From: a virus | DNA length: 45,769 nt | Strand: one strand, 5' to 3' | Virus record (IMG/VR): IMGVR_UViG_3300008108_000246 | Span: 1-45,769 of that record | The notes under the pieces: generated by a model | What the model was told of the DNA's origin: nothing | Database searches by the model: none | The model's input: the letters and a program-made list of their open reading frames with translations, nothing else | Program-made: the position numbers and the translations under genes | Part shown: piece after piece, positions 1,076 through 33,651 of the stretch | Layout of the letters: each line of letters begins with the position of its first letter | How positions within the stretch are numbered: the stretch's first letter is position 1

Positions 1076-1104
1076 ATTATACAGTCTGATTAGCCATTAG
1101 TCAA
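1076..1104 (-). promoter_or_regulatory. Sigma70-type promoter
   Basis: Reading leftward, TTGACT is followed by exactly 17 bases and then TATAAT. It drives the 653-1009 gene. Confidence 0.85.
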
Positions 1105-1134
1105 TCACTTTTGGCTAACCAAACCATATTCTTT

Positions 1135-1479
1135 TTAGTCCAATCTGGACCCTGCGTAGGCTTCAAAACCGTACTTCTTGAACACTTCTGCGGCCGCTTC
1201 TGCACCCGCTTCTAGTGTGTCTACGTTCTGAACGCCCAAACCGCTGGGGTTCCAAATGCTGAATGCCTTGGTGTAGTCCTGTTTGACACCTGCTGTTTTG
1301 AGCATCTTGCCCAGCTTGGTGTTGCCTTTGACCTTGTAGATGTTAACCCAAGCAAAACCGCAGGCGAACTGATCACGGCCATTAAGCTTGTCATAGAAGA
1401 ACTTCATTGCCGCTTCGTATGCGGCCTGCTGTGCTTCTTTGACGATTGCATTGACCTGCTCTTGTGTAGTGACTTGCAT
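1135..1479 (-). CDS. Conserved-looking phage protein of unknown function, 114 aa
   Basis: The N-terminus is a long helix (residues 5-32). It is followed by FACGFAWVNIYKVKGNTKLG and a glycine-rich C-terminal half. No known catalytic motif is visible. It is a monocistronic unit with promoter 1511-1539 and a good ribosome site (TAGGAGCGATA before ATG). Confidence 0.75.
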   Translation of the reverse strand: MQVTTQEQVNAIVKEAQQAAYEAAMKFFYDKLNGRDQFACGFAWVNIYKVKGNTKLGKMLKTAGVKQDYTKAFSIWNPSGLGVQNVDTLEAGAEAAAEVFKKYGFEAYAGSRLD

Positions 1480-1510
1480 TATCGCTCCTATCTAGTGTGT
1501 GTAAGCGTTA

Positions 1511-1539
1511 ATTATAGCACCAAAAGGTAACCCAGTCAA
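1511..1539 (-). promoter_or_regulatory. Sigma70-type promoter with -35 in a hairpin loop
   Basis: TTGACT, 17 bases, TATAAT, reading leftward. The -35 lies in the 11-base loop of an inverted repeat (TAACCC 1528-1533, GGGTTA 1545-1550). The same loop sequence recurs at 7598-7608. Confidence 0.85.
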
Positions 1540-1551
1540 CCTGCGGGTTAT

Positions 1552-1818
1552 TTACTTTCGTGGCTTTTTTACAACACGTGGCTTTTTAGCCACATGTGGG
1601 TTTTCAATGGCTTTGCTGAATTCTCTGTCCACATAATACTGAATTAGTTGGCGTTGAATCATTGTAACCAAATCACCGTGATCATTGTCGATGACAAATC
1701 TCACTGGGCAGTCTTTCCAAGATAGGTTTTTGTTGAAGTTGGCAAACCAGCGTCTATGATCCTTGTTCGCAGGATCAAAAACCACATACTGTCTACCGTA
1801 GAGTGCTAGTTTACTCAT
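1552..1818 (-). CDS. Basic-tailed unknown protein, 88 aa
   Basis: An unrecognised protein whose last 12 residues are almost all Lys, Arg, Pro and Val, a likely nucleic-acid-binding tail. The N-terminal part has aromatic and charged residues (DHRRWFANFNKN). It is the last gene of a five-gene leftward operon beginning at 2997, and its start overlaps the stop region of the 48-aa gene upstream. Confidence 0.7.
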   Translation of the reverse strand: MSKLALYGRQYVVFDPANKDHRRWFANFNKNLSWKDCPVRFVIDNDHGDLVTMIQRQLIQYYVDREFSKAIENPHVAKKPRVVKKPRK

Positions 1819-1957
1819 GTTGAGTATTTATACTCCGTGTTACCCACTGCCTTACAACTTCTTCCAAAGGAGCAAAGTTATACTCGGGCTCTTTGGGCCG
1901 CACCCGCTCCTTTTGCTTCAGATCGTATTCAGTGTTCAGTTCTTTATTAGTTTTCAT
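1811..1957 (-). CDS. Small unknown protein, 48 aa
   Basis: This short frame starts MKTNKELNTEYDLKQKERV and ends SINTQHE. It is supported by its position: the start shares ATGA with the stop of the Api92-like gene, and its stop overlaps the start of the 88-aa gene. It is charged and probably helical. No function is recognisable. Confidence 0.65.
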   Translation of the reverse strand: MKTNKELNTEYDLKQKERVRPKEPEYNFAPLEEVVRQWVTRSINTQHE

Positions 1958-2526
1958 TCTTCTTCCTCTTCTTTGTTTTCTTCTTCCCACATAGCGGCAT
2001 CTTCAGAGATGCCAAACGCTTCGTCCAACTCTACAGGCAAGGTCTCAGCGATCTCTTTACTGTCCATACCACCATACTCGTAGTAGTCATCAAACCCGTC
2101 TTCCCAAATGCCTGCGAAAGCCATGCCGCATTCGTAATACATAGCACGGATTCTAAAACCCAGTTCCTCCAGTTTAGCGTATGCTGTAATAGGAGGGCTC
2201 CATGCTGAGTCAAAGCCCAACATCAATCCGCCAGGAATGTCCTGTGCAGGGTTGCCATCGGCACCAACATCCCACTTGGTACCCCACTCGTTGACACAGA
2301 AGTCATACCAGTTGGTGTAGCCGTGTGTGATGCGATTAAACTCTTCTTTGAGTTCATGCTCTGCTCGTTCTGCTTCAGGAACTGAACCTGCCACAATCTG
2401 TAGATCCTTGGGCACTGGAATGAACTCATCAAGCAAACGACCGTCATTAAACGCAGATCGCACCCGCTCAATCATAGCAGGGTCATCATGGTAGATCTCT
2501 ACCGAATTATTACACCAATTAGGCAT
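1954..2526 (-). CDS. Api92-like / DUF1281 family protein
   Basis: The N-terminus MPNWCNNSVEI matches the hallmark opening of the Api92-like ferredoxin-fold family found in many phages and plasmids. It is followed by a helix (MIERVRSAF), a long central region, WGTKWD, FDSAWSPP and an acidic tail of Glu residues. I chose the ATG at 2526, not one at 2565, because GGTGAGGAG lies just upstream and the family starts MPNW. The biochemical role of the family is unknown. It is coupled to both neighbours by overlaps. Confidence 0.85.
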   Translation of the reverse strand: MPNWCNNSVEIYHDDPAMIERVRSAFNDGRLLDEFIPVPKDLQIVAGSVPEAERAEHELKEEFNRITHGYTNWYDFCVNEWGTKWDVGADGNPAQDIPGGLMLGFDSAWSPPITAYAKLEELGFRIRAMYYECGMAFAGIWEDGFDDYYEYGGMDSKEIAETLPVELDEAFGISEDAAMWEEENKEEEEE

Positions 2527-2731
2527 CGAAAGTCTCCTCACCAAGTTGTTCAACAGTTTCTTCAATTACACCCAAGTCCAGGATGCGGGCAGTTTGATCT
2601 TCGTTGCTGACACCCTGGAAGGCTGTACGGAACGATTGGTTCTCTGCAAGGAAGTCGTATACATCCAAACGATCCCAAGTGTCAGGCACTTCCAGCTCTT
2701 GTGTGAGCAGGGTTCGAACAATGACTTTCAT
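2519..2731 (-). CDS. Small acidic protein, 70 aa
   Basis: An unrecognised protein starting MKVIVRTLLTQELEVPDTWDRLDVYDFL and ending in an acidic helix with EETVEQLGEE. The pattern (strand, then a helix opening with W-D-x-x-D) suggests a small compact fold. It overlaps the Api92-like gene by 8 bases and shares ATGA with the upstream gene. Confidence 0.7.
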   Translation of the reverse strand: MKVIVRTLLTQELEVPDTWDRLDVYDFLAENQSFRTAFQGVSNEDQTARILDLGVIEETVEQLGEETFDA

Positions 2732-2997
2732 ACAACCTCCGAATCGTATTCGTAAAATGTAACAGCAGGGTCCAACTTCTTCAACTGCTTTGCGGCAGTC
2801 ATCAGCTCTTTGTATCTCCGATTGACCTCTGCGCGAGGAAGTTCCCCATCGCAGGTCAAGTTCTCAGGGCTCAAAGCCGCATCAATCATATCTGCGACAC
2901 GCTGACGACCTTTGGCAGTCTTGATCTCGTATTGCTCGCCGTTGAAGAAACTGTTCCAGTGATTCTTCTGTGCAATGAACTCTTGTAGTGCTTTCAT
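2728..2997 (-). CDS. Unknown helical protein, 89 aa
   Basis: First gene of the 2997-1552 operon, preceded by a good ribosome site (AAAGGAGCGATAG). It has several amphipathic helices (residues 1-20, 27-43, 54-77) and no recognisable motif. Promoter 3030-3058 lies directly upstream. Confidence 0.7.
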   Translation of the reverse strand: MKALQEFIAQKNHWNSFFNGEQYEIKTAKGRQRVADMIDAALSPENLTCDGELPRAEVNRRYKELMTAAKQLKKLDPAVTFYEYDSEVV

Positions 2998-3029
2998 CTA
3001 TCGCTCCTTTTGTGTGTCTGTATGTATGT

Positions 3030-3058
3030 ATTATAACGCCAAACGGTCACCGCGTCAA
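3030..3058 (-). promoter_or_regulatory. Sigma70-type promoter
   Basis: TTGACG, 17 bases, TATAAT, reading leftward. The -35 is inside the last codons of the 3047-3256 gene (Leu-Thr). It drives the five-gene operon 2997-1552. Confidence 0.85.
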
Positions 3059-3256
3059 GCGGAACCGATCAATAACCCTATCTGCATCAGGGGTATCTTC
3101 TATCTGATCAAAGGTCGCGGCAGTCATCAGCTCATAGACTACACGGGCATCGTGCCCAAAGACCTTAAGGATCACATTGACTTCTTCTTGTGTTTCAGCT
3201 ACCCACAGCAGGTCTGCGATCTTAACTTGGGCAGGGTTTTGCAGTTTCAGTTCCAT
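3047..3256 (-). CDS. Small unknown protein, 69 aa
   Basis: An unrecognised, mostly helical protein (DLLWVAETQEEVNVILKVF, then YELMTAATFDQIED). It follows a 27-aa membrane peptide gene in the same transcript from promoter 3380-3408. Confidence 0.65.
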   Translation of the reverse strand: MELKLQNPAQVKIADLLWVAETQEEVNVILKVFGHDARVVYELMTAATFDQIEDTPDADRVIDRFRLTR

Positions 3257-3265
3257 GTTGGTTCC

Positions 3266-3349
3266 TCAGAGTTTAGTGATGATCCAGCACTTGACAGCAA
3301 AGATTGCCGCTACGATCAGTGTGGTTACGATAATTTCAGTGCCTGTCAT
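3266..3349 (-). CDS. 27-aa single-pass membrane peptide
   Basis: The frame begins MTGTEIIVTT, continues as a hydrophobic helix (LIVAAIFAV) and ends CWIITKL. A strong ribosome site (AGGAG, 7 bases before ATG) and promoter 3380-3408 support it. It probably sits in the inner membrane. The role is unknown. Confidence 0.65.
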   Translation of the reverse strand: MTGTEIIVTTLIVAAIFAVKCWIITKL

Positions 3350-3379
3350 TGTGTGCTCCTTATTATTCACTATACCTAT

Positions 3380-3408
3380 AGTATAGCACCTTTTGGCTAG
3401 GGCGTCAA
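3380..3408 (-). promoter_or_regulatory. Sigma70-type promoter
   Basis: TTGACG, 17 bases, TATACT, reading leftward, ahead of the 27-aa membrane peptide gene. Confidence 0.8.
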
Positions 3409-3446
3409 CCTCGGTGTTGCATTAAAACAACAGGTCGAGTGCGGGG

Positions 3447-3504
3447 GCGGACCCAGGTTGCAGGCTACAGGTCCTATGGAGAGTAGCCAGGCGATAGGGT
3501 CCGC
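3447..3504. other. Nested inverted repeat, possible structured RNA or terminator
   Basis: GCGGACCC (3447-3454) pairs perfectly with GGGTCCGC (3497-3504). Inside it GGCTAC (3463-3468) pairs with GTAGCC (3483-3488). It starts six bases past the stop of the HTH gene, in a 100-base stretch without a credible gene. No U-tract follows on either strand. Confidence 0.5.
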
Positions 3505-3509
3505 GAAAC

Positions 3510-3725
3510 TTATGAATTGACTGTGTCGAAGGGACTGTAGATGTCCTTGATCAGACGCTCTTGTGCAGACTCGTCCCACTCATCAAAGGGCTTGCACCCT
3601 TGCTCTGCGATCCAACCCAACACCAGCTCTTTAGGGCAGTCTAGCTCACGGGCGATCTGTCCTGCATTCTTGCCCTCAATATAGAGCTGTTCAATGTCGT
3701 ATGCTAGTTCACTCATTACACTCAT
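3510..3725 (-). CDS. Small helix-turn-helix protein, 71 aa
   Basis: Residues about 8-42 (YDIEQLYIEGKNAGQIAREL and the following ELVLGWIAEQG) match the homeodomain-like HTH pattern of transposase- and sigma-like DNA-binding helices. It is probably a small transcription regulator or DNA-binding protein. The start at 3725 has GAGGAG six bases upstream and shares ATGA with the preceding gene. Confidence 0.75.
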   Translation of the reverse strand: MSVMSELAYDIEQLYIEGKNAGQIARELDCPKELVLGWIAEQGCKPFDEWDESAQERLIKDIYSPFDTVNS

Positions 3726-3898
3726 AGTGTCTCCTCAGGTAGGTAAGCGATTAGGGATTCTTCGTCGAGCTTGAACAGCAACTCTTCAATGGCTGTGGTG
3801 TCCATGTTCTCAATGTCTAATTGAAACTGAGTGATCGCAAGATCAACCAGCTCTTGCTTATCACGGGCCATGGCCCGTTTGCTTTGGAATCCAGTCAT
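3722..3898 (-). CDS. Small unknown helical protein, 58 aa
   Basis: The frame starts MTGFQSKRAMARDKQELVDL and ends AYLPEETL. It is supported by perfect coupling: TAATG with the gene upstream and ATGA with the HTH gene downstream. The pattern is two amphipathic helices with an acidic second half. No family is recognised. Confidence 0.7.
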   Translation of the reverse strand: MTGFQSKRAMARDKQELVDLAITQFQLDIENMDTTAIEELLFKLDEESLIAYLPEETL

Positions 3899-4383
3899 TA
3901 TGCTGTCTCCTCTTGTGCGAGACGATCTCGCTCGTCTTCTAGGGCCGCATCCAACTCAATGTAGCCGTCGCCGTGCTCTGCTACAAACCAAACAGCCTTG
4001 CCGTTGACGTTGCGCAGGATGTACTCGTATTCCTCGTACTGGTGGTTCTCAACATAGTCCGCATAGTCTTTGAAACGCTTGGCCGCTACACCAGTCTCGC
4101 CACGATCGCGAGCGTAGAATGTGCAGGCGCCTTCAGCTATGGCTGCTTCATACAATGCTTCGTCTTCCTTGCTACCGTGTGGACTGAAAGGATGTGCTTG
4201 GCCAATAACTTTGCCCAAGCTAGACAAGTCACCCATGTCGATCAAGTCGCGCAGTTTGAACGGATCGTTGTAGTATTGGAACAAGATCTGTCCGTTGTGT
4301 GACAAGTAGCCGTCCCAGTGGCAGTAGACCTGCTCAACTGTGCCGTCTGCGTACTCAAGTGCAATAGTGCTTCGTGTTCCCAT
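3898..4383 (-). CDS. Conserved phage/plasmid protein of unknown function, 161 aa
   Basis: It opens MGTRSTIALEYADGTVEQVY, followed by CHWDGYLSHNG and FQYYNDP. This pattern is shared by a family seen in many phages and mobile elements (MGTRS.I...dG....Y.HWDGY...G). The family function is unknown to me. It heads a three-gene operon with the 58-aa protein and the HTH protein, driven by promoter 4413-4441. Confidence 0.85.
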   Translation of the reverse strand: MGTRSTIALEYADGTVEQVYCHWDGYLSHNGQILFQYYNDPFKLRDLIDMGDLSSLGKVIGQAHPFSPHGSKEDEALYEAAIAEGACTFYARDRGETGVAAKRFKDYADYVENHQYEEYEYILRNVNGKAVWFVAEHGDGYIELDAALEDERDRLAQEETA

Positions 4384-4409
4384 AGTTCGCTCCTGTGTGT
4401 GTTTAAGTC

Positions 4410-4595
4410 TTAATTATACTGCCTTTTGGCAACCTTGTCAACCGCTTCAAGTGCGCTTTGGAAGGAGTAGGCCTCGCCGATCAAGCGCCTGTGCTCACGT
4501 ATCTGCAGTCTGCGCCAACGTGGGCTGTAGGTGATCTTAAACTGTCTGCCTTCAACAGCTACCGTAGTAGTAGCACCGCGACTCGTAACTTCCAT
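4410..4595 (-). CDS. Small basic protein, 61 aa
   Basis: An Arg-rich unrecognised protein (FKITYSPRWRRLQIREHRR), preceded by AAAGGAGCAGACG and its own promoter at 4623-4651. A short strand-rich N-terminal half and a C-terminal helix are likely. Nucleic-acid binding is possible from charge only. Confidence 0.65.
   Translation of the reverse strand: MEVTSRGATTTVAVEGRQFKITYSPRWRRLQIREHRRLIGEAYSFQSALEAVDKVAKRQYN
4413..4441 (-). promoter_or_regulatory. Sigma70-type promoter, fully consensus
   Basis: TTGACA, 17 bases, TATAAT, reading leftward. It overlaps the last codons of the 4410-4595 gene and drives the 4383-3510 operon. Confidence 0.9.
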
Positions 4596-4622
4596 CGTCT
4601 GCTCCTTTGTTGCTATGTGTTA

Positions 4623-4651
4623 ATTATAGCGTCTTATGCTAGCTCAGTCAA
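4623..4651 (-). promoter_or_regulatory. Sigma70-type promoter
   Basis: TTGACT, 17 bases, TATAAT, reading leftward. The -35 lies inside the last codons of the 4634-4882 gene. Confidence 0.85.
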
Positions 4652-4882
4652 CTGGTAGTCTACAATAACCCTACTGCCTGTACGGGTTAAGAACAGCTTG
4701 GTGCTGTCAGTGCCGCCCTCTACGAGAAAGACTGCCATGTAGCAGATCTGCCCGCCGTTGGTAATGCCTAGGAACTTACACGATGAGAACGCTGGGCCTT
4801 TGTAGCCGTTGTCTCTGGCCAGCTTGGTCAAAGTAGGGGCATGGTAAGAGATCATCTCTTGTAGTGTGTCTGGTGTGATCAT
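4634..4882 (-). CDS. Small unknown protein, 82 aa
   Basis: A helical N-terminus (TLQEMISYHAPTLTKLAR) is followed by a strand-rich region (QICYMAVFLVEGG, TKLFLTRTGSRVIVDY). The ribosome site AAAGGACACACA is good. It lies just after the 109-aa gene with no promoter between, so the two are probably co-transcribed. No family is recognised. Confidence 0.7.
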   Translation of the reverse strand: MITPDTLQEMISYHAPTLTKLARDNGYKGPAFSSCKFLGITNGGQICYMAVFLVEGGTDSTKLFLTRTGSRVIVDYQLTELA

Positions 4883-4897
4883 TGTGTGTCCTTTAGA

Positions 4898-5227
4898 TTA
4901 AAATGGTGCTTCTGATTCGCACAGGCCGTCCTTTTCCATCAGCGTCTCTAGTGCCTCACGCACACGGTCGCTAGTGTCGAGGAAGAATGTATAGTCGCCT
5001 AGTGTACGCTTGTCTTCGTCGTCAATGTATTCAAAGCCGCCGTAGTAGTTGAAGCTTCGTGCGTCACCGTCTACAATAATGCAGTCCAAGTTCTCGCCAA
5101 CATAAGCTCGGCCACAGCGCATATCCAAGCCCAAGTCGTTTGCGCTTACACGGCGCAGGCCCTGTACATGACGCTCCACAGCATATTGGATCTCGTCAAT
5201 CATTTCTAGTGTGTCTGTGAATTGCAT
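4898..5227 (-). CDS. Unknown acidic protein ending in EAPF, 109 aa
   Basis: An unrecognised protein with CGRAYVGENLDCIIVDGDAR and YYGGFEYIDDED motifs and a C-terminus ESEAPF. This is the second protein in the leftward region whose last residues are acidic followed by Ala-Pro-Phe (compare 653-1009). It has promoter 5260-5288. Confidence 0.7.
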   Translation of the reverse strand: MQFTDTLEMIDEIQYAVERHVQGLRRVSANDLGLDMRCGRAYVGENLDCIIVDGDARSFNYYGGFEYIDDEDKRTLGDYTFFLDTSDRVREALETLMEKDGLCESEAPF

Positions 5228-5259
5228 AGTTTCGCTCCTATTGCGTTGTTGATGTGTTA

Positions 5260-5288
5260 ATTATAGCATAAAAAGGAACCATTGTCAA
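5260..5288 (-). promoter_or_regulatory. Sigma70-type promoter, fully consensus
   Basis: TTGACA, 17 bases, TATAAT, reading leftward, driving 4898-5227. Confidence 0.9.
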
Positions 5289-5464
5289 CTCTCTGTCTCT
5301 ACCCGTAAGCGCATCTCTCACAGGCTGTGACGGTCATTACTTCCTACCGTATCCGTCAACCTCAGCTTTCGCCTTGCCTTCTTGGACTGTAAGATTGCGT
5401 GGGTGCCCCTTCGCTTCTCTCTTTACAGTCCCTAACGGTGTAGGTAACCTTTTTAACTATCTAT
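5289..5464 (-). ncRNA. Candidate structured non-coding RNA
   Basis: This stretch of about 175 bases has no credible reading frame but its own consensus promoter (5471-5499). Reading leftward, GGACTGTAA pairs perfectly with TTACAGTCC about 30 bases later. Inside that stem, GCG-AA-GGG-GCA-CCC-A-CGC forms a second hairpin. Further on, TGACGG pairs with CCGTCA around a 19-base loop. It ends at the next promoter. I do not recognise the RNA family. It could instead be a long leader for the 4898-5227 gene. Confidence 0.45.
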
Positions 5465-5470
5465 GTGTCT

Positions 5471-5499
5471 ATTATACTGCCAAACTGTCTTGCTGTCAA
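5471..5499 (-). promoter_or_regulatory. Sigma70-type promoter for the candidate RNA
   Basis: TTGACA, 17 bases, TATAAT, reading leftward. The next open frame starts about 240 bases downstream, after another promoter. Confidence 0.9.
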
Positions 5500-5501
5500 C
5501 A

Positions 5502-5520
5502 ACCCTACGGGTCGTAGGGT
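5502..5520 (-). terminator. Hairpin abutting a promoter
   Basis: ACCCTACG and CGTAGGGT form an 8-bp stem with a GGT loop, right after the stop of the 5523-5678 gene and two bases from the next -35. It has no clear U-tract, so termination is inferred from position. Confidence 0.5.
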
Positions 5521-5522
5521 CT

Positions 5523-5678
5523 TTAACTTGCTACATAATCTTCCGGAACTTCGTCATCTATTACTGTGCATAATACATTAAAAGCGTCTTGTATTTTGTC
5601 GTTATCTTCAAAGTCAGTGTCTACTAACATTTGAAGTTGACTTAATAATGTAAAAATGTGCTGTTTATCTTTTGACAT
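5523..5678 (-). CDS. Small acidic helical protein, 51 aa
   Basis: The frame starts MSKDKQHIFTLLSQLQMLVD and ends DDEVPEDYVAS. It has its own promoter (5704-5732) and a ribosome site (AAAGGAAC). It is a helix followed by an acidic tail. It is not recognised. Confidence 0.65.
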   Translation of the reverse strand: MSKDKQHIFTLLSQLQMLVDTDFEDNDKIQDAFNVLCTVIDDEVPEDYVAS

Positions 5679-5703
5679 AGTGTTCCTTTGTTGCTATGTG
5701 TTA

Positions 5704-5732
5704 ATTATAGCGCAAAGGGCCCAAACAGTCAA
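5704..5732 (-). promoter_or_regulatory. Sigma70-type promoter overlapping a stop codon
   Basis: TTGACT, 17 bases, TATAAT, reading leftward. The TGA within the -35 is the stop codon of the 5729-5965 gene. Confidence 0.85.
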
Positions 5733-5965
5733 CCAACAGCGTTGTATAACCCTACAAGCCCTATGGCTAATGCTACAAGGTTGACCACGGCCTGCGGCAC
5801 ATTACGTACCCGCAAGGCCCATGCCAAAAATGCTACAGTACCTACAGCGAACACGGCAATATTGTAGGGGTACATTGTAGGGCCTATGCTGTTAAGCACG
5901 TGCCCCGCAATAATTGCCACAGCGCCTAGCCACTGTAGCGCATTGTCTACGTGCTTATAACTCAC
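5729..5965 (-). CDS. Small integral membrane protein, 78 aa
   Basis: Three hydrophobic segments (about residues 11-28, 33-50 and 58-76) with short polar joins indicate a small inner-membrane protein. The frame overlaps the upstream gene by ATGA. The function cannot be told from sequence. Holin-like activity is possible but unsupported. Confidence 0.75.
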   Translation of the reverse strand: MSYKHVDNALQWLGAVAIIAGHVLNSIGPTMYPYNIAVFAVGTVAFLAWALRVRNVPQAVVNLVALAIGLVGLYNAVG

Positions 5966-6369
5966 GCAGTAACCCCCATACGTGCTCGCACGTAGTCTGC
6001 TAGTGCATAAGCGTCACAGCTAACACGCCCCTCGTCTTGCATACCTTGTTCGCTGTAAGTAACAGCTTCTGCAGCCTCAATGCTAATGCCTGCCTTAATA
6101 AGCTCTGTACGCACACACTCCAAAAATGCTGTGTCTGTGTAAATTAAGCCCAGCTCGTTGTCGTCCCAAGTAGCTGTGTCGTATATTACAGCCAAGTCTC
6201 CGTCAAAATAATCGCCTTCCTCTGCTTCGCTAGCAATATACATTGTAATGCTCTCTACAAATACTTCTTTTGCAGTTTCGCTCCAATAGCCGTCGCCGCT
6301 AGTGTTAAACATTTTGTTAACAGTAATGTCTAGCGTAAAGCCCTCGTCTGTGCGTGTAACGTTTTGCAT
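5962..6369 (-). CDS. Unknown acidic protein, 135 aa
   Basis: An acidic protein with FTLDITVNKMFNTSGDGYW near the N-terminus, a long Asp/Glu-rich middle and a C-terminal helix (CDAYALADYVRARMG). No motif is recognised. It heads a two-gene operon with the membrane protein, from promoter 6393-6421. Confidence 0.7.
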   Translation of the reverse strand: MQNVTRTDEGFTLDITVNKMFNTSGDGYWSETAKEVFVESITMYIASEAEEGDYFDGDLAVIYDTATWDDNELGLIYTDTAFLECVRTELIKAGISIEAAEAVTYSEQGMQDEGRVSCDAYALADYVRARMGVTA

Positions 6370-6392
6370 AGTTCGCTCCTATTTAAAACACA

Positions 6393-6421
6393 ATTATAAC
6401 ATTAATCTACGTAGTAGTCAA
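6393..6421 (-). promoter_or_regulatory. Sigma70-type promoter
   Basis: TTGACT, 17 bases, TATAAT, reading leftward. The -35 lies within the last codons of the 6402-6563 gene. Confidence 0.85.
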
Positions 6422-6563
6422 CTTCGTCTGCTAGTTGCGTAAGTGTCCTAGTCACTTCTCCAAAGCAGTCTAGCTCTGCAAATTGCATGCCGTCGCACTC
6501 TGCTTCCATAAGCAAAGTCTCTACTTCTGCTAGTTTAGCAAAAATCTGTTCTTTAACTGTCAT
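6402..6563 (-). CDS. Small acidic protein, 53 aa
   Basis: The frame opens MTVKEQIFAKLAEVETLLME and ends ADEVDYYVD. It looks like two amphipathic helices. Promoter 6591-6619 and ribosome site AAAGGAGCGAG support it. No family is recognised. Confidence 0.65.
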   Translation of the reverse strand: MTVKEQIFAKLAEVETLLMEAECDGMQFAELDCFGEVTRTLTQLADEVDYYVD

Positions 6564-6590
6564 CTCTCGCTCCTTTGTTGCTATGTGTGT

Positions 6591-6619
6591 ATTATAGCAG
6601 ATTTTGGCAGGGCTGTCAA
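6591..6619 (-). promoter_or_regulatory. Sigma70-type promoter, fully consensus
   Basis: TTGACA, 17 bases, TATAAT, reading leftward, driving 6402-6563. Confidence 0.9.
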
Positions 6620-6621
6620 CA

Positions 6622-6640
6622 ACCCTACACAGCGTAGGGT
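6622..6640 (-). terminator. Hairpin abutting a promoter
   Basis: ACCCTAC and GTAGGGT form a 7-bp stem with a 5-base loop between the stop of 6650-6934 and the next -35. It has the same arrangement and stem sequence as 5502-5520. Confidence 0.5.
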
Positions 6641-6649
6641 CTTTCTAGA

Positions 6650-6934
6650 TCACATTGACCAGTAGAGCTCCGAGCTTGGGTCACAGCTTCGCGGAGTGTC
6701 ATGCGGGATCTGTATAGCCGCACCCGACATCAAGTTGACCACAGTCTTCATTGTGGGCACCGTCTCTATGCGGAATCCCTTGCTGGTAGGCCACAGCTCG
6801 TATTGTAGTTCGCGGACTTCTCGCTTCATCTCTGCGGCATCCCTGTTCTGCCAAACTGTAGTGCTGACCAGTCGCTCTCCCGTCTTTGTACGACGGTCCG
6901 TCTTGTAGATGTACATTGTATGACTCTGTTTCAT
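6650..6934 (-). CDS. Unknown protein, 94 aa
   Basis: It starts MKQSHTMYIYKTDRRTKTGE and continues with strand and helix segments (LVSTTVWQNRDAAEMKREV, ELQYELWP). It reads like a small alpha-beta domain of the kind that reports typed key-value data in phage accessory genes, but I recognise no family. Promoter 6962-6990 is upstream. Confidence 0.65.
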   Translation of the reverse strand: MKQSHTMYIYKTDRRTKTGERLVSTTVWQNRDAAEMKREVRELQYELWPTSKGFRIETVPTMKTVVNLMSGAAIQIPHDTPRSCDPSSELYWSM

Positions 6935-6961
6935 TGTCGCTCCTTTGTTGTCTATGTTGTT

Positions 6962-6990
6962 ATTATAAGCTCAAACGGGCTGGATGTCAA
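6962..6990 (-). promoter_or_regulatory. Sigma70-type promoter, fully consensus
   Basis: TTGACA, 17 bases, TATAAT, reading leftward. It overlaps the 3' end of the Gp88-like gene. Confidence 0.9.
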
Positions 6991-7543
6991 CCACCCGGCG
7001 CACGAAGCCCGAAGTGTCTTTCTTTGCACGGCCCTTGGCCTTAAGACCAATAATGCCCACTTTAGGGTCTAGGATGGGAATGTCTGCAACCTTGCGTCCC
7101 AAGACCTTTGTATAGTCGTAGAACTGTAGTGTACTGAACGTGTCAAAGATGTTCTTGCCCATGTTAGGCACTGGATACTTCTCCCAGCTCAAATCGCTAG
7201 TACCGTTCAAGCGGAACACAGGCACTAGGCCCTTACGGCGAGCATAGTTCACAGCTCGCATGATGTCCCCGACAAGATCTGACATAAAAGCATCGCGATT
7301 GTCAAAGAAGTACTGAGTCTTGCGGATACGTGCCCGTTGTATGACATTGGTGTTCTCGCCACGTTTGAACATACCGCCACGACCTGCGGTGTTAAGGCAA
7401 GCGGCAGTACAACCTGCAGTTCGCTTGGGGCAAGTCTCACGCCCGCTCAAGTCTGCTGGCGCAAGGTGCAAGATGAAGCTCAAATAGCCTTTTGCCGTGC
7501 CCTTTTGGATTTTGGGGTTTGCTGTGGAAAGTAATTTAAACAC
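6971..7543 (-). CDS. Gp88-like phage protein, 190 aa
   Basis: The segment CPKRTAGCTAACLNTAGRGG (residues about 38-57) with three cysteines, then TQYFFDNRDAF, RLNGTSDLSWEK and a C-terminal IIGLKAKGRAKKDTSGFV, matches the phage family named after mycobacteriophage gene product 88. The family's activity is not established. The clustered cysteines suggest metal or cluster binding, which is inference. The length seems near the short end for the family. It has its own promoter at 7575-7603. Confidence 0.8.
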   Translation of the reverse strand: MFKLLSTANPKIQKGTAKGYLSFILHLAPADLSGRETCPKRTAGCTAACLNTAGRGGMFKRGENTNVIQRARIRKTQYFFDNRDAFMSDLVGDIMRAVNYARRKGLVPVFRLNGTSDLSWEKYPVPNMGKNIFDTFSTLQFYDYTKVLGRKVADIPILDPKVGIIGLKAKGRAKKDTSGFVRRVVDIQPV

Positions 7544-7574
7544 GGTTCGCTCCTTGTTGTTTACTGTAGCCTTA

Positions 7575-7603
7575 ATTATAGCAGATATCTATAACCCAGT
7601 CAA
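7575..7603 (-). promoter_or_regulatory. Sigma70-type promoter inside an inverted repeat
   Basis: TTGACT, 17 bases, TATAAT, reading leftward. The -35 is in the loop of the inverted repeat 7586-7620. Confidence 0.85.
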
Positions 7604-7620
7604 CCTGCGGGTTATAGATA
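7586..7620. repeat. Perfect 12-bp inverted repeat flanking a -35 box
   Basis: TATCTATAACCC (7586-7597) and GGGTTATAGATA (7609-7620) are exact complements around the 11-base loop AGTCAACCTGC. The loop and the inner 6 bp of the stem also occur at 1528-1550. It could be the terminator of the GIY-YIG gene, an operator, or both. Confidence 0.7.
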
Positions 7621-7935
7621 CTGATCGTTCAACGAAGGTGCTAGCTCTTTGACCAGCTCGCGCTCGTAGGCATAAGCTTCCTTGCGGCCACGTATGACAG
7701 CAAGAACACGATGCGACCAAGCAAGATCTAGTCCGCCAGTCTTCAAGTATACGTACAAGGCCCAAAGACGGTTCTCGTTCTTTGCACGGCTCTTGTGCTT
7801 GCGCCAACGCTCGTTTACGACCTTGGTGACATTGGGCTGGCTCTTACGGGTCAGGCCAATATAGTTATTTCCCAGCTCGTCCACCATCTCGTAGATGATG
7901 TAGTTGCAGTCTGATCTGGTCTTACGTCTAGTCAT
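7612..7935 (-). CDS. GIY-YIG nuclease domain protein, 107 aa
   Basis: IIYEMVDELGNNYIGLTRK (residues about 13-31) matches the GIY-YIG core. An Arg and Lys-rich helix follows (ERWRKHKSRAKNENR), and a Glu-bearing segment (YAYERELVKEL) could supply the metal ligand. Such single-domain proteins act as homing or accessory nucleases in phages. I chose the ATG at 7935 because AAGGAGCGAACA precedes it and the longer frame has no ribosome site. Confidence 0.8.
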   Translation of the reverse strand: MTRRKTRSDCNYIIYEMVDELGNNYIGLTRKSQPNVTKVVNERWRKHKSRAKNENRLWALYVYLKTGGLDLAWSHRVLAVIRGRKEAYAYERELVKELAPSLNDQYL

Positions 7936-7959
7936 TGTTCGCTCCTTCACTATGCCTAT

Positions 7960-7988
7960 AGTATAGCATGTCCCGCCCAAACTGTCAA
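7960..7988 (-). promoter_or_regulatory. Sigma70-type promoter
   Basis: TTGACA, 17 bases, TATACT, reading leftward, driving the GIY-YIG gene. Confidence 0.85.
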
Positions 7989-8015
7989 CCCCAGGCCGCA
8001 CTCGATCTGTGGCTG

Positions 8016-8261
8016 TTATGCCACACTGTGCGGGGCAGTTAAACGAGCAATCTCTGCAGACATTTTAGCAATTTTTTCTTGCTCCAATTTTACAATAAAT
8101 TTTGCTTTTTTAGCTTCAATGTCCCTGCGAAACTTTGCAGTACTTACATTAAGCATCAAACTCGTTTGACCGTAGCTTTGCAGTGTATTTTGTACATTGT
8201 AGACTCGGGCGCGGGCCGCTGACATAGCGTATGCGTTAACTGTAGTTGCGTATTGTCCCAT
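8016..8261 (-). CDS. Small helical protein, 81 aa
   Basis: Mostly helical and Lys/Ala-rich, with a coiled-coil-like C-terminal half (AKKAKFIVKLEQEKIAKMSA). It is the first leftward gene next to the putative origin and is driven by promoter 8290-8318. No family is recognised. Confidence 0.7.
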   Translation of the reverse strand: MGQYATTVNAYAMSAARARVYNVQNTLQSYGQTSLMLNVSTAKFRRDIEAKKAKFIVKLEQEKIAKMSAEIARLTAPHSVA

Positions 8262-8289
8262 TTAGTGCTCCTTCTTACTGTATGCGCTT

Positions 8290-8318
8290 ATTATAGCATT
8301 TTGGCCCGCACCCGTCAA
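8290..8318 (-). promoter_or_regulatory. Sigma70-type promoter, leftward arm of a divergent pair
   Basis: TTGACG, 17 bases, TATAAT, reading leftward. The rightward promoter 8353-8381 starts 35 bases away. Confidence 0.85.
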
Positions 8319-8352
8319 CGGGCTAAAAGAACACACACAGACAGTAGGGTCA

Positions 8353-8381
8353 TTGACAGCCAGCCCAAAAGACAGTATAAT
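8353..8381 (+). promoter_or_regulatory. Sigma70-type promoter reading into the putative origin
   Basis: TTGACA, 17 bases, TATAAT, reading rightward. A 12-bp palindrome ATGTTCGAACAT (8388-8399) overlaps the expected start site and may be an operator. Downstream lie the palindrome and DnaA-box region with no good gene, so the transcript may act as an origin RNA or primer. Confidence 0.8.
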
Positions 8382-8435
8382 AATGACATGTTCGAACATA
8401 GTGGGGGTGGACGGCGACTGTGGGCGAGTGGTTCT

Positions 8436-8459
8436 AGGTTAGTTAGCACTAACTAACCT
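8436..8459. repeat. Perfect palindrome with 11-bp arms
   Basis: AGGTTAGTTAG and CTAACTAACCT are exact complements separated by CA. It directly adjoins the DnaA-box inverted repeat and could be a protein-binding site or cruciform. Confidence 0.85.
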
Positions 8460-8581
8460 GTGGACAAGCTGTGGATAGATTCTGGTGTGGCTTTTGGGCA
8501 ACGGTGGGGGAAAAGTTATCCACAGCTTGTCCACAGTGGCAGAAACGCAACATGAAAAAGTTATGCACAGAGTTATCCACA
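8458..8581. other. Putative replication origin with DnaA-box cluster
   Basis: Perfect or near-perfect DnaA boxes (TTATNCACA) lie rightward at 8516-8524 (TTATCCACA), 8527-8535 (TTGTCCACA), 8561-8569 (TTATGCACA) and 8573-8581 (TTATCCACA), and leftward at 8459-8467 and 8470-8478. Bases 8458-8477 and 8517-8536 are a perfect 20-bp inverted repeat, 39 bases apart. The region sits where leftward and rightward transcription diverge. DnaA-box arrays mark bacterial and plasmid origins, and T4-type phages are not known to depend on them. Confidence 0.75.
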
Positions 8582-8660
8582 TAGATTTGCCCCTGAACTA
8601 TTGCAAACCAAAGTATTACCCCTGCCCCTAGTTGCGAGATTCTTTTGGTTGACCCCGCCC

Positions 8661-8864
8661 TTAACCTTCACGAAATTCCCATACGCCCTCGGGCATGGGT
8701 TCTATAATATAGTCAGCGGCCGCACCTTCACTGTTGAACGAATCCCAATCACAGCGACTGTTGTCTATAGTGCTCTTAAAGCATAGTATATGATCTGAAT
8801 CACTGTCACGACTGATCACAACGCGATGTGTACGAAACTGTATATAGCCTAGCTGAGTAATCAT
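8661..8864 (-). CDS. Small unknown protein, 67 aa
   Basis: A plausible leftward gene lying between the origin and the iteron region. It starts MITQLGYIQFRTHRVVISRD and carries an acidic middle (DSDSDH) and YIIEPMPEGVWEF near the end. The ribosome site AAGGATCAACT precedes the ATG. No consensus promoter is visible and no family is recognised. Confidence 0.6.
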   Translation of the reverse strand: MITQLGYIQFRTHRVVISRDSDSDHILCFKSTIDNSRCDWDSFNSEGAAADYIIEPMPEGVWEFREG

Positions 8865-8986
8865 AGTTGATCCTTACTGTATCCTGTATAGAGTATTTAC
8901 TAGTATGTGATCTAGAATGTGAAAAAGTGCAATCTAGATTCCACCACCGTGCGTACAGAGTCAATACGGTCAGGCAATCCCACTGA

Positions 8987-9022
8987 AAAGTGTGGAAAAG
9001 TGTGACAAAGTGCAAAAAAGTG
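8987..9022. repeat. Iteron-like array, AAAGTG every 10 bp
   Basis: AAAGTG begins at 8987, 8997, 9007 and 9017, each followed by TG or CA. A fifth copy (AAAGTGCAA) lies at 8924-8932. Exact 10-bp phasing puts all four copies on one face of the helix, typical of cooperative protein binding. Confidence 0.75.
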
Positions 9023-9325
9023 CAACAGATCCTAGATTTAGAGTCAGAATCAAGGATCATCATGGCAAGGCATAGAATTTTTATTTTTCTCAACGGTGGG
9101 GCAGAACGGCTATGCAAAAATACTCTCCCAACCTTGATCACACGCTTGATCACACACCCTCCTTCCACCATAGATTCACAGTGATTTCACCAAACAGCCC
9201 TCACGATCGATTCTATAGCACGGTTCTTGCTAGTCCAGGGCCAAAAATTCGCGTGCCGATCTCTTGCTGGCGCTGCCGCTTCGCGGTCTAGGGCATCTGG
9301 ACCTAGCTCAAAAGGTTCTCTCACC

Positions 9326-9484
9326 CTAGCAGCGGGGCCTGCGTATAGTATAGCTAGTTCACTGCTCGATATGTCGATGCGTGAGTATAGGCCGTCACTA
9401 GCAGCGGGGCCTTGACTATATGTGTATGTGTATGCGTGTGTGCGTATGCGTATACAGTCGATACAGAGTGCTACAGCGGGGCCT
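9326..9484. repeat. Three 11-bp repeats with exact 72-bp period
   Basis: CAGCGGGGCCT occurs at 9330-9340, 9402-9412 and 9474-9484. The first two extend leftward to CTAGCAGCGGGGCCT. The intervening 61-base segments are not alike. The region has no credible gene. Confidence 0.8.
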
Positions 9485-18006: not shown

Positions 18007-18546
18007 ATGAAAACAGTTGGAGATAAATTAACAGCATTTGCAGTCACAGGAGTGAAGCCCGGACAGCCAGAAGACGCTTTCTACACTATTACAGAAAATA
18101 GTTTTGAAGGCAAGTGGAAGGTAATCGTTTACTATCCAAAAGACTTTACATTTGTTTGCCCTACAGAGATTGTAGCATATGATAAGTTAGCACAAGACTT
18201 CACTGATCGAGACGCAGTATTACTCACAGGAAGCACAGACAATGAGTTCTGCAAAGTGTCATGGCAGAAAGCACACAGTGATCTACAAAAGATCACGCAT
18301 CATCAGTTCGCTGATACTGCTCGCAATGAGTTAAGTTTAATTGATCAGTTAGGTGTATTTTATCAACCAGCAGGCGCCGCACTTCGCGCAACATTCATTG
18401 TTGACCCAGACAACGTTATCCAACACGTCACAGTCAACAACTTGAACGTTGGCCGTAGCCCAGAAGAAACGCTTCGTGTATTGGATGCGCTACAAACTGG
18501 CGAGCTATGTGCTTGTAATCGTACAGTAGGCGGCGAAACACTTTAA
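18007..18546 (+). CDS. ahpC: AhpC-type peroxiredoxin, 179 aa
   Basis: A cytoplasmic thiol peroxidase that reduces hydrogen peroxide and organic peroxides. The active site Y-P-x-D-F-T-F-V-C-P-T-E is intact with peroxidatic Cys51, and Arg127 fits the conserved active-site Arg. The C-terminus carries ELCACN (Cys168, Cys170). That double-Cys end is typical of mycobacterial AhpC, which is reduced by AhpD, and an ahpD gene lies 413 bases downstream. The AAAGGAG ribosome site is strong. Confidence 0.95.
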   Translation: MKTVGDKLTAFAVTGVKPGQPEDAFYTITENSFEGKWKVIVYYPKDFTFVCPTEIVAYDKLAQDFTDRDAVLLTGSTDNEFCKVSWQKAHSDLQKITHHQFADTARNELSLIDQLGVFYQPAGAALRATFIVDPDNVIQHVTVNNLNVGRSPEETLRVLDALQTGELCACNRTVGGETL

Positions 18547-19536: not shown

Positions 19537-20541
19537 GTGAACAAACTACTAGCAATTCTATTAGCCGCAGTGTCTATATCAGCACACTCGGCAGACATCA
19601 CAGGAGCAGGAGCTACCTTTCCGTTCCCAATCTATGCCAAATGGGCAGAAGGATATAAGAAAGCTACTGGCAACAGTTTGAACTATCAGAGCATTGGTAG
19701 TTCAGGTGGTATTAGACAAATCAACGCAAAGACAGTAGACTTTGGTGCAACTGATGCTCCGGTAAAAGGTGAAGACCTAGACAAGAACGGACAAGTTCAA
19801 TTCCCTGCTATCATTGGCGGAACAGTTCCTGTTGTTAATTTAGATGGTATCAAGCCTGGCGAATTAAAGATTACTGGACCAGTTATGGCTGAAGTGTTCT
19901 TGGGCAACATTACCAAGTGGAATGATCCTAAATTAACAGCACTAAACCCAGGCAAGGCATTACCAGATGCACCAATCACTATTGTACATCGTGCTGATGG
20001 CTCGGGTACAACATTCAACTGGACAGACTACCTTGCTACTGTTAGTCCTGAGTGGTTGGCCCGTGTGGGTCGTGGTGCCGCAGTCAAATGGCCAGCAGCT
20101 ACATCTGTGGGTGGCAAGGGCAACGAAGGTGTTGCAGCCAACGTTAACCGCATCAAAGGTTCAATCGGTTATGTAGAGTATGCTTATGTTAAGAAAAACA
20201 ATATGGTATTCTTACAGCTACAAAATAAGAGTGGTAAGTTTGTTAGTCCAGATGACTTAACATTTGCCGCAGCCGCGGATGGCGCTGATTGGTTCTCAGT
20301 TCCTGGTATGGGGCTCAGCATTGTAGATCAAAAGAATCCCAACGCATGGCCAGTAAGTTCTGCCAGCTTTATCATTATGTACAAGGAGCCAAAGAACAAG
20401 GCCAACAGCGATGAAGTGCTAAAGTTCTTTGACTGGGCATTTAAGAATGGTAAGAAAGATGCCATTGACCTAGACTATGTACCGTTGCCCGATGCCTTGA
20501 CCAAACAGATTCGTGAACGAGTATGGACACAGATCAAATAA
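19537..20541 (+). CDS. pstS: Phosphate-binding protein PstS, 334 aa
   Basis: The periplasmic phosphate-binding component of the PstSCAB transporter. The signal peptide MNKLLAILLAAVSISAHSAD is clear. Phosphate-site motifs are intact: GAGATFPFPIY, SSGGIRQI, FGATDAP and HRADGSGTT. Full length. PstS occurs in marine phages as a phosphate-scavenging gene. The host provides the membrane parts. The start is GTG with AAGGAG upstream, behind a Pho box. Confidence 0.95.
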   Translation: MNKLLAILLAAVSISAHSADITGAGATFPFPIYAKWAEGYKKATGNSLNYQSIGSSGGIRQINAKTVDFGATDAPVKGEDLDKNGQVQFPAIIGGTVPVVNLDGIKPGELKITGPVMAEVFLGNITKWNDPKLTALNPGKALPDAPITIVHRADGSGTTFNWTDYLATVSPEWLARVGRGAAVKWPAATSVGGKGNEGVAANVNRIKGSIGYVEYAYVKKNNMVFLQLQNKSGKFVSPDDLTFAAAADGADWFSVPGMGLSIVDQKNPNAWPVSSASFIIMYKEPKNKANSDEVLKFFDWAFKNGKKDAIDLDYVPLPDALTKQIRERVWTQIK

Positions 20542-32026: not shown

Positions 32027-32461
32027 ATGAAGAAATTTTTATTATTATTGCTGGCTGTGCCGTTGCTGGCCTTTGCACAAAAAACACCACAGGGGGTAAC
32101 CTATGACGCACAGATCGTTCGCATCAATGATGGCGATACTGTAGTTATAGCCGCACCGTTTTTACCTGCTCCGCTCAAGCCAGAGTTGGCTGTTAGAGTC
32201 TTCGGAGTGGACACTCCAGAAAAAGGTTTTAGAGCTCAATGTCCAAGCGAAGATCAGCGAGGACAAATGGCCACAGCCTTTACCAAACAAGCTATCGCTT
32301 CGAGTCAAAAGCGTCAAGTCATCCTATACGGCTGGGACAAGTTCGGTGGTCGTGTTCTTGGTGATATTATTTTAGACGGAAAGAGTCTACGATCTGCACT
32401 GATTGCCAACGGGTTCGCTCGTGAGTACTTTGGTGAAGCTAAACAAAGCTGGTGTAATTAA
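32027..32461 (+). CDS. Secreted thermonuclease (SNase family), 144 aa
   Basis: A signal peptide ([17 protein letters not shown]) sends it out of the cytoplasm. The staphylococcal-nuclease residues are intact: [16 protein letters not shown] (Arg57, Asp62, Glu65) and FGGRVLGDI (Arg109), with the same spacing as Arg35, Asp40 and Glu43 in the type enzyme. It could degrade DNA in the periplasm, for example that of competing phages. It converges with the ALAS gene and overlaps it by four bases. Confidence 0.9.
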
Positions 32462-33651
32462 ACCCCAATTGCTTTTAAAGCATTAACTAAATCTTCAATC
32501 ATACCATCATCATGTAACGGAGTAGGTGCAAAGCGTAACCGCTCCGTTCCCACATCTACTGTAGGATAGTTGATTGGCTGAACATAGATATTATGTTCGT
32601 TGAGTAATGCATCGCTCATTGCCTTACACTTCTTTGCATCGCCTATCAGCACAGGAACTATGTGTGTAGTAGAGCAATCCATAAATGGTAAATTGTTTTT
32701 AATTAAACTGTCTTTTAGTTTCTGAGCCTGTTGCTGATGCCGTTCACGCAGTTCTGGATGTGCTTTAAGGTACTTAACCGCAGCCATAGCACCTGCACAG
32801 GTAACAGGACTCATACTTGTCGTAAAGATAAAGCCAGCAGCAATACTACGAACAGCATCAATGATTACACTATCGGCAGCAATATAACCACCTTGGACTC
32901 CAAACGCTTTGCCTAGAGTGCCGTTGACTATGTCCACTCTATCTTGTAAGCCTAGTTCTTCTACCTTACCACCGCCATGAGCTCCGTAGAGTCCTACTGC
33001 GTGTACTTCATCAATGTATGTTATAGCACCGTACTTGTCTGCTAGATCGCATATTTCTTTAATTAATCCTACATCACCGTCCATACTGTATACACTTTCA
33101 AATACAATACAAGGTGTCTCTCCTGCACTTCTCACAGAAGACAGTATAGTTTCTAGATTAGCTAAATCGTTGTGTTTAAAGACAGTTTTTGCTGCTCGGC
33201 TATGACCAATGCCTATGATCAAACTGTTGTGATTGTTGCTGTCGCTGACAAAATGTATATTAGGAATGATCTTTGATAGAGCAATCAGTGTCCATTCGTT
33301 GGCCACATACGCTGAACTAAACAGCAGAGCTTTTTCTTTCTTGTGCAGAGTTGCTAGTTCATACTCTAGGGCTACGTGGTAGTGGCTAGTACCACCAATG
33401 TTGCGTGTACCACCAGACCCTGTGCCTGTATGGTCAAGTGCGGTGTGCATGGCATCAATTACCACTTTGTGCTGTCCCATACCTAGATAGTCGTTACTGC
33501 ACCAGTTAACAATGTTTTTAATAGCATAAGGACCGTACCAAATTGCATTAGGAAACTTGCCGTTTTCTCGCACAATATCATTAAAAACGCGGTACTTGCC
33601 GTTAGATTTGAATTCTTTTATTAGATCTTCGAATGGCTGTTTGTTTATCAT
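32458..33651 (-). CDS. hemA: 5-aminolevulinate synthase, 397 aa
   Basis: ALAS condenses glycine with succinyl-CoA into 5-aminolevulinate, the first step of haem synthesis in alphaproteobacteria. The whole family pattern is present: [51 protein letters not shown] (Asp214, His217) and [13 protein letters not shown] with Lys248, the PLP lysine, plus [11 protein letters not shown]. Full length, intact. It is the only leftward gene between 9.5 and 37 kb. No good ribosome site is visible before the ATG. Confidence 0.95.

Follow-up and report, generated by a model that had tools for sequence, protein, structure and literature searches.

Gene layout and promoters

The window, the whole stretch of DNA analysed here, is the 45,769-base virus record IMGVR_UViG_3300008108_000246 (positions 1 to 45,769). 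It encodes homologues of RIIA and RIIB, and a T4-type Gp23 capsid is found in the large records that share the RNA motif described below. The phage group, made up of very large freshwater phages, is therefore of the T4 type, and the label given in the first-pass annotation holds for the group. Leftward genes occupy the window up to 8261 and rightward genes predominate from 10049, so the switch in gene direction noted earlier is present. At the locus the early block of leftward genes meets the rightward genes, in a junction that is largely non-coding. It had been placed at 8353-8581. These coordinates are correct but too narrow, since the conserved locus extends from 8353 to about 9030. Cultured phages have no nucleotide similarity to positions 7600-9400 of the window, and a RIIA query for finding relatives had no match among viral contigs. 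A family-B DNA polymerase is encoded in six of the 11 relatives searched, including the one of 383 kb.

Two consensus promoters diverge at the junction, as the first-pass annotation described. The leftward sigma70 promoter (8290..8318, minus strand; TTGACG-17-TATAAT, 11 of 12 consensus positions) belongs to the early small-gene block. The rightward one (8353..8381, plus strand; TTGACA-17-TATAAT, 12 of 12) is perfect and reads into the element. Most of the leftward early genes (1104-8318, minus strand) are preceded, just 5' of the start codon, by a near-perfect sigma70 promoter of their own; the RNA motif is absent from all of these promoters.

Other genes of the window are worth recording. At 18007-18546, 19537-20541 and 32458-33651 are metabolic genes that, judged by eye, resemble those of the host; the candidates are an AhpC-type peroxiredoxin, a PstS-type phosphate-binding protein and a KBL/ALA-synthase-like aminotransferase. 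Near the putative origin, a gene at 7612-7935 (minus strand) has a weak match to the GIY-YIG nuclease (E=0.0004, under the Pfam cut-off) and might be homing-related.

A conserved RNA motif behind the rightward promoter

Directly downstream of the rightward promoter lies a conserved phage RNA motif of a short-loop class, ATG-TTCGAA-CATAGT-GGGGGTGGACG-GCGA... (8388..8424, plus strand). The motif as a whole is found in at least 84 unique copies and at more than 100 loci. A first scan of viral contigs with the 20-mer TATCCACAGCTTGTCCACAG matched nine contigs, every one of which has DnaA-box clusters. One of the nine (L007) additionally has the promoter and ATGTTCGAACATAGTGGGGGTGGACGGC, and two (L002 and L006) carry diverged forms. 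A second scan with the pattern TTCGAAN{3,14}GGGGRTGGACG matched at least 119 viral stretches. Judged by promoter and motif context, 102 of the 124 matches listed are real. The comparison set used below consists of the window copy and 83 other unique motif copies among the matches listed.

In bacterial and archaeal genomes (257 billion bases) the same pattern has at least 120 matches. Promoter and motif occur together in a single one of those listed, which lies on a possibly phage-derived 4.9-kb contig assigned to a Methylophilaceae bin. With a single genuine copy among the bacterial and archaeal matches listed, the motif is phage-specific in these collections. It is absent from XacN1, CM1, Tunturi_5, DC31, LR756511 and Ci1, and a consensus RNA query against cultured phages gave chance matches only. 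Rfam 15 has no relevant match (the best, E=0.28, is to a mammalian lncRNA and far under its gathering score). Identity with a tRNA or another known RNA was rejected.

The long-loop class of the motif folds, as judged by covariation, into an H-type pseudoknot with two stems, S1 and S2. In S1 the three bases preceding (G/A)TTCGAA pair with the three bases beyond the next triplet. In S2 the triplet after (G/A)TTCGAA pairs with the bases preceding GGGRTGGACG. In a gap-free alignment of this class (n=23), changes on both sides occur in all six of the six pairs and 94.9% of cells pair. Covariation scores 0.524 for this pairing, whereas shuffles give 0.133 and sliding the pairing gives no more than 0.149 (n=23). 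A larger set (n=44) agrees. The window copy is of the short-loop class (CATAGTG, with the compensatory variant CTTAGAG), for which the support concerns the short S2 only. This covarying, phage-specific motif, absent from Rfam, is new and the most unusual part of the locus.

The sigma70 promoter scores 11-12 of 12 in 64 of the 84 unique copies among the matches listed, and the -10 box ends at most 13 nt from TTCGAA in 65 of the same 84. The RNA is therefore predicted to begin at the first stem or close by. Its first 54 nt are G-rich (mean GC skew 0.34 in 81 relatives). An intrinsic terminator stands directly 3' of the RNA in only two of 81 relatives and was rejected as a general feature.

Most genomes of 100-383 kb show a single copy when the strict pattern is applied. 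Relaxing the pattern reveals one more, diverged copy no more than a few kb away in some of them (G005, G006 and G033); the claim of a strictly single copy was rejected, and the RNA is thus not confined to the DnaA site. The early-gene region carries one or two copies per genome. A put-like element at every early promoter was also considered and rejected, given these copy numbers and about a dozen other strong early promoters of the window that have no motif. In some contigs (L033:3505-4300, L114:13643-14200 and L075) the motif occurs in tandem pairs around small genes or directly before a gene, which in L033 is an HNH-type gene. It looks as if the RNA motif could spread as a cassette. Since the motif is also present at loci that lack iterons and in other settings, its function may go beyond priming.

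DnaA boxes

DnaA-box-like sites were defined as 9-mers with at most one mismatch to TTATCCACA. Six of them lie at 8459-8581, two being exact, which agrees with the count made earlier. On the minus strand are TTGTCCACA (8459..8467) and, 11 bp from it, CTATCCACA (8470..8478). The plus strand has the exact consensus TTATCCACA (8516..8524) followed at 11 bp by TTGTCCACA (8527..8535), and then TTATGCACA (8561..8569) followed at 12 bp by a second exact TTATCCACA (8573..8581). Dinucleotide shuffles average 0.07 boxes per 300 bp against the six seen here, and a count of six was not reached in any of 2,000. The remaining 13 such 9-mers of the 45.8-kb window are scattered.

Two symmetrical structures overlap the boxes or adjoin them. 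The 20-bp inverted repeat (8458..8536; arms 8458-8477 and 8517-8536, 39-bp spacer) is perfect, as had been claimed, but it holds four boxes, two per arm, instead of the two first assigned to it, so that it consists of two facing box pairs. Its perfection is not kept in relatives, where the longest arms are 7-18 bp. Because relatives retain the box arrays and not the perfect repeat, the repeat was rejected as a separate unit. The palindrome AGGTTAGTTAG-CA-CTAACTAACCT with 11-bp arms is also where it was first seen (8436..8459; arms 8436-8446 and 8449-8459). A GTTAG..CTAAC palindrome at a fixed offset of 46-52 nt after the start of TTCGAA is found in 19 of 81 relatives, against one of 1481 control windows.

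Among the 84 unique copies in the matches listed, 22 have four to nine DnaA boxes within 260 nt downstream of the element and the other 62 have at most two. Boxes on the same strand in the 22 loci are spaced by 11 bp (33 times), 12 bp (11 times) or 22 bp (24 times), other spacings being rare. These distances amount to a single or double turn of the helix with 2-3 bp between boxes, the phasing expected of cooperative DnaA arrays. What is conserved in the relatives is phased box arrays, usually in both orientations, which begin some 45-118 nt downstream of TTCGAA and extend across 70-200 bp. In the 383-kb relative the seven-box cluster at this locus is the sole one with more than three boxes per 300 nt. 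A box cluster beyond chance and helically phased same-strand arrays, both features of DnaA-dependent origins of the oriC type, are thus found here. A strongly AT-rich unwinding element adjoining the boxes was not found in 60-bp windows across the locus: AT content is 48-62% at the boxes, and the most AT-rich stretch (8851..8940; 67-70%) is about 300 bp off.

None of 23 phage records searched encodes a DnaA C-terminal domain. Host DnaA is therefore the only candidate ligand in the records searched. Relatives of up to 364 kb have the same locus (promoter, RNA motif and often the iteron array) without DnaA boxes. It follows that DnaA would be a helper or timer, not a universal requirement, and it is at most a group-specific layer on the locus.

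DnaA-box clusters, several of them with 11-bp phasing, are also found without the RNA motif in other viral contigs (L003, L004, L005, L008, L009 and L010; L008 and L010 are relatives of one another). Host-DnaA arrays may be common among environmental phages. Many DnaA-array contigs (G020, G023, G025, G027, G028, G030 and G036) terminate within about 1 kb of the locus, perhaps because near-identical 20-mers common to phages break assemblies.

A small conserved gene and iteron-like repeats

Between the DnaA boxes and the iterons lies a gene for a 67-aa protein (8661..8864, minus strand), with homologues in the same place at 18 other loci. Four strands and one helix are predicted for the protein (pLDDT 89.8), which has no sequence match in Pfam, PHROG or PDB. 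Family and fold searches of this protein beside the iterons found no recognisable Rep or initiator protein. Fold matches are weak, with Pur-alpha repeats among the best (E=0.2); these matches are not used as evidence. Pur-alpha binds GGN-rich single strands. The RNA neighbouring the gene is GG-rich.

An iteron-like array with a 10-bp period, GAAAAGTGTG GAAAAGTGTG ACAAAGTGCA AAAAAGTGCAA, is at 8985..9025 (plus strand), and a further iteron-like unit, TGTGAAAAAGTGCAA, is at 8918-8932. The unit pattern in relatives is (A/T)A(A/T)GTG(T/C)NNN, again phased. The array lies downstream of the motif, at a distance of about 230-760 nt and usually of 510-690 nt. Phased arrays of at least three units are found in 33 of the 66 motif copies with sufficient downstream sequence, against none of 545 control windows, and are missing at the other 33. 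They occur in copies with and without DnaA boxes.

A candidate replication origin

The first-pass annotation proposed a host-DnaA-dependent origin with a promoter that may supply the primer, and named GC skew as a check. A skew switch is present at the locus. However, skew follows gene direction throughout the genomes, and third-position skew has no consistent sign between codirectional and head-on genes, so that no replication strand bias is seen. Skew that tracks gene direction cannot decide on an origin. The proposed host-DnaA dependence gains from the phased arrays in 22 of 84 relatives and from the lack of a phage DnaA in the records searched, but it does not extend to the relatives that keep the locus without boxes. 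The promoter does read into the element, but its product begins with the conserved RNA motif and is not a generic primer.

In view of the oriE features of the locus and the pairing of iterons with DnaA boxes in P1 and F, an oriE-like origin tied to host DnaA is the best-supported reading. There is an even chance, in our judgement, that a very large T4-type phage starts replication in the region from 8353 to about 9030, an origin of the oriE kind to which one phage group has added phased DnaA arrays. From the anatomy and conservation of the locus, the phasing of its boxes and the covariation of its RNA, all of them observed, we infer origin activity, DnaA binding and R-loop priming along the following lines. 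Early after infection, host RNA polymerase would fire the consensus promoter at 8353. The transcript would begin with the conserved G-rich motif, a sequence that may promote R-loop formation. Just downstream, host DnaA would load on the facing, phased arrays (8459-8581) and could aid duplex opening, keep the RNA-DNA hybrid open, or both. The phage replisome would then extend the RNA primer (the largest relatives encode a family-B polymerase). The iterons at 8985-9025 may bind a phage factor, perhaps the adjoining conserved 67-aa protein.

A bolder and less likely form is that large T4-type phages have a new type of origin, in which a dedicated structured RNA, transcribed from a consensus promoter and carrying a pseudoknot at its 5' end, is passed to the replisome as the primer at an iteron origin, a step that some groups gate with host DnaA arrays. 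If true, such a gated, RNA-primed iteron origin would couple phage initiation to the host's initiation switch.

Other explanations of the locus need to be weighed. It may be mainly an early regulatory RNA gene, where DnaA bound downstream of the promoter at 8353 represses or times the structured RNA. The RNA motif is indeed the most widely kept part (at least 84 unique copies, covarying stems, consensus promoters), and it occurs without boxes or iterons, at one or two copies per genome in the early-gene region. Boxes that begin some 45-118 nt past TTCGAA and are spread over 70-200 bp are nevertheless unlike a compact operator, and neither the iterons nor the 67-aa gene would be accounted for, which makes transcription control as the main function somewhat unlikely. 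The array may instead titrate host DnaA, so that many phage copies halt initiation at the host chromosome while phage replication starts elsewhere. datA acts as such a sink in E. coli, and dense phased arrays fit this need exactly. Moreover, relatives replicate without arrays, and unrelated phage contigs without the RNA motif have box clusters (L003 to L005 and L008 to L010). A sink explains neither the constant site just downstream of the promoter and RNA motif nor the placement upstream of iterons at a divergent junction in many loci, and six boxes are few compared with the host's own; we consider it unlikely.

It is highly improbable that the boxes are an oriC-like fragment acquired by chance or by recombination with the host and without a role in the phage. 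Clusters of TTATCCACA are typical of bacterial oriC (PMC4980987). Yet the arrays in 22 loci are independent and diverged, have quantised spacing and stand at the same position, and among the bacterial matches listed the locus is only on one small, possibly phage-derived contig.

The oriE-like reading would provide a concrete candidate origin in phages of up to 383 kb and would make the use of host DnaA by large T4-type phages directly testable. The locus also adds a covarying, phage-specific RNA family absent from Rfam.

Comparison with known origins

T4-type phages are the standard example of DNA replication initiated from R-loops and by recombination. In T4 the oriE origin combines a promoter of the early mode with iterons of 12 nt at regular intervals, and like oriF and oriG it is located at a point where transcription changes strand (PMC3016281). 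The locus resembles oriE in all of these respects and likewise belongs to a T4-type phage: the promoter at 8353 is of the early, host sigma70 type, the direct repeats are even and syntenic in relatives, and transcription diverges. The iteron period differs, about 10 bp here and 12 nt in oriE. The T4 replication review PMC3016281, in which the word DnaA does not occur, mentions neither phased DnaA boxes nor a conserved RNA motif in its account of oriE. With oriF and oriG the locus shares a promoter that reads into the origin and a possible RNA primer. At oriF and oriG the promoter is of the middle mode (MotA) and is immediately followed by an AT-rich unwinding element, whereas here a full sigma70 promoter is followed by the G-rich conserved RNA motif and DnaA boxes.

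The HK022 put RNA is structured, stands right after an early promoter and has two hairpins. The motif is similar in position and in being structured, but it is a small H-type pseudoknot with one or two copies per genome. DnaA sites arrayed in E. coli oriC are separated by a 2-bp gap. Such arrays occur there in both orientations (PMC4980987), and the oppositely oriented arrays of the locus, with mostly 2-bp gaps, are alike in this; in contrast to bacterial oriC no clear DUE or DnaA-trio is seen beside the boxes, and the phage records searched encode no DnaA.

DnaA boxes beside iterons are usual in the origins of P1, F and other plasmids (PMC4980987). Iteron origins of plasmids and prophages (P1, F, pSC101, RK2; PMC4980987) share with the locus the iterons, DnaA boxes, an AT-rich stretch and a small iteron-adjacent gene. 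The locus differs from them in having no recognisable Rep initiator, in belonging to a large T4-type phage, and in the strong promoter and RNA motif in front. Its architecture is a variant of known origin types.
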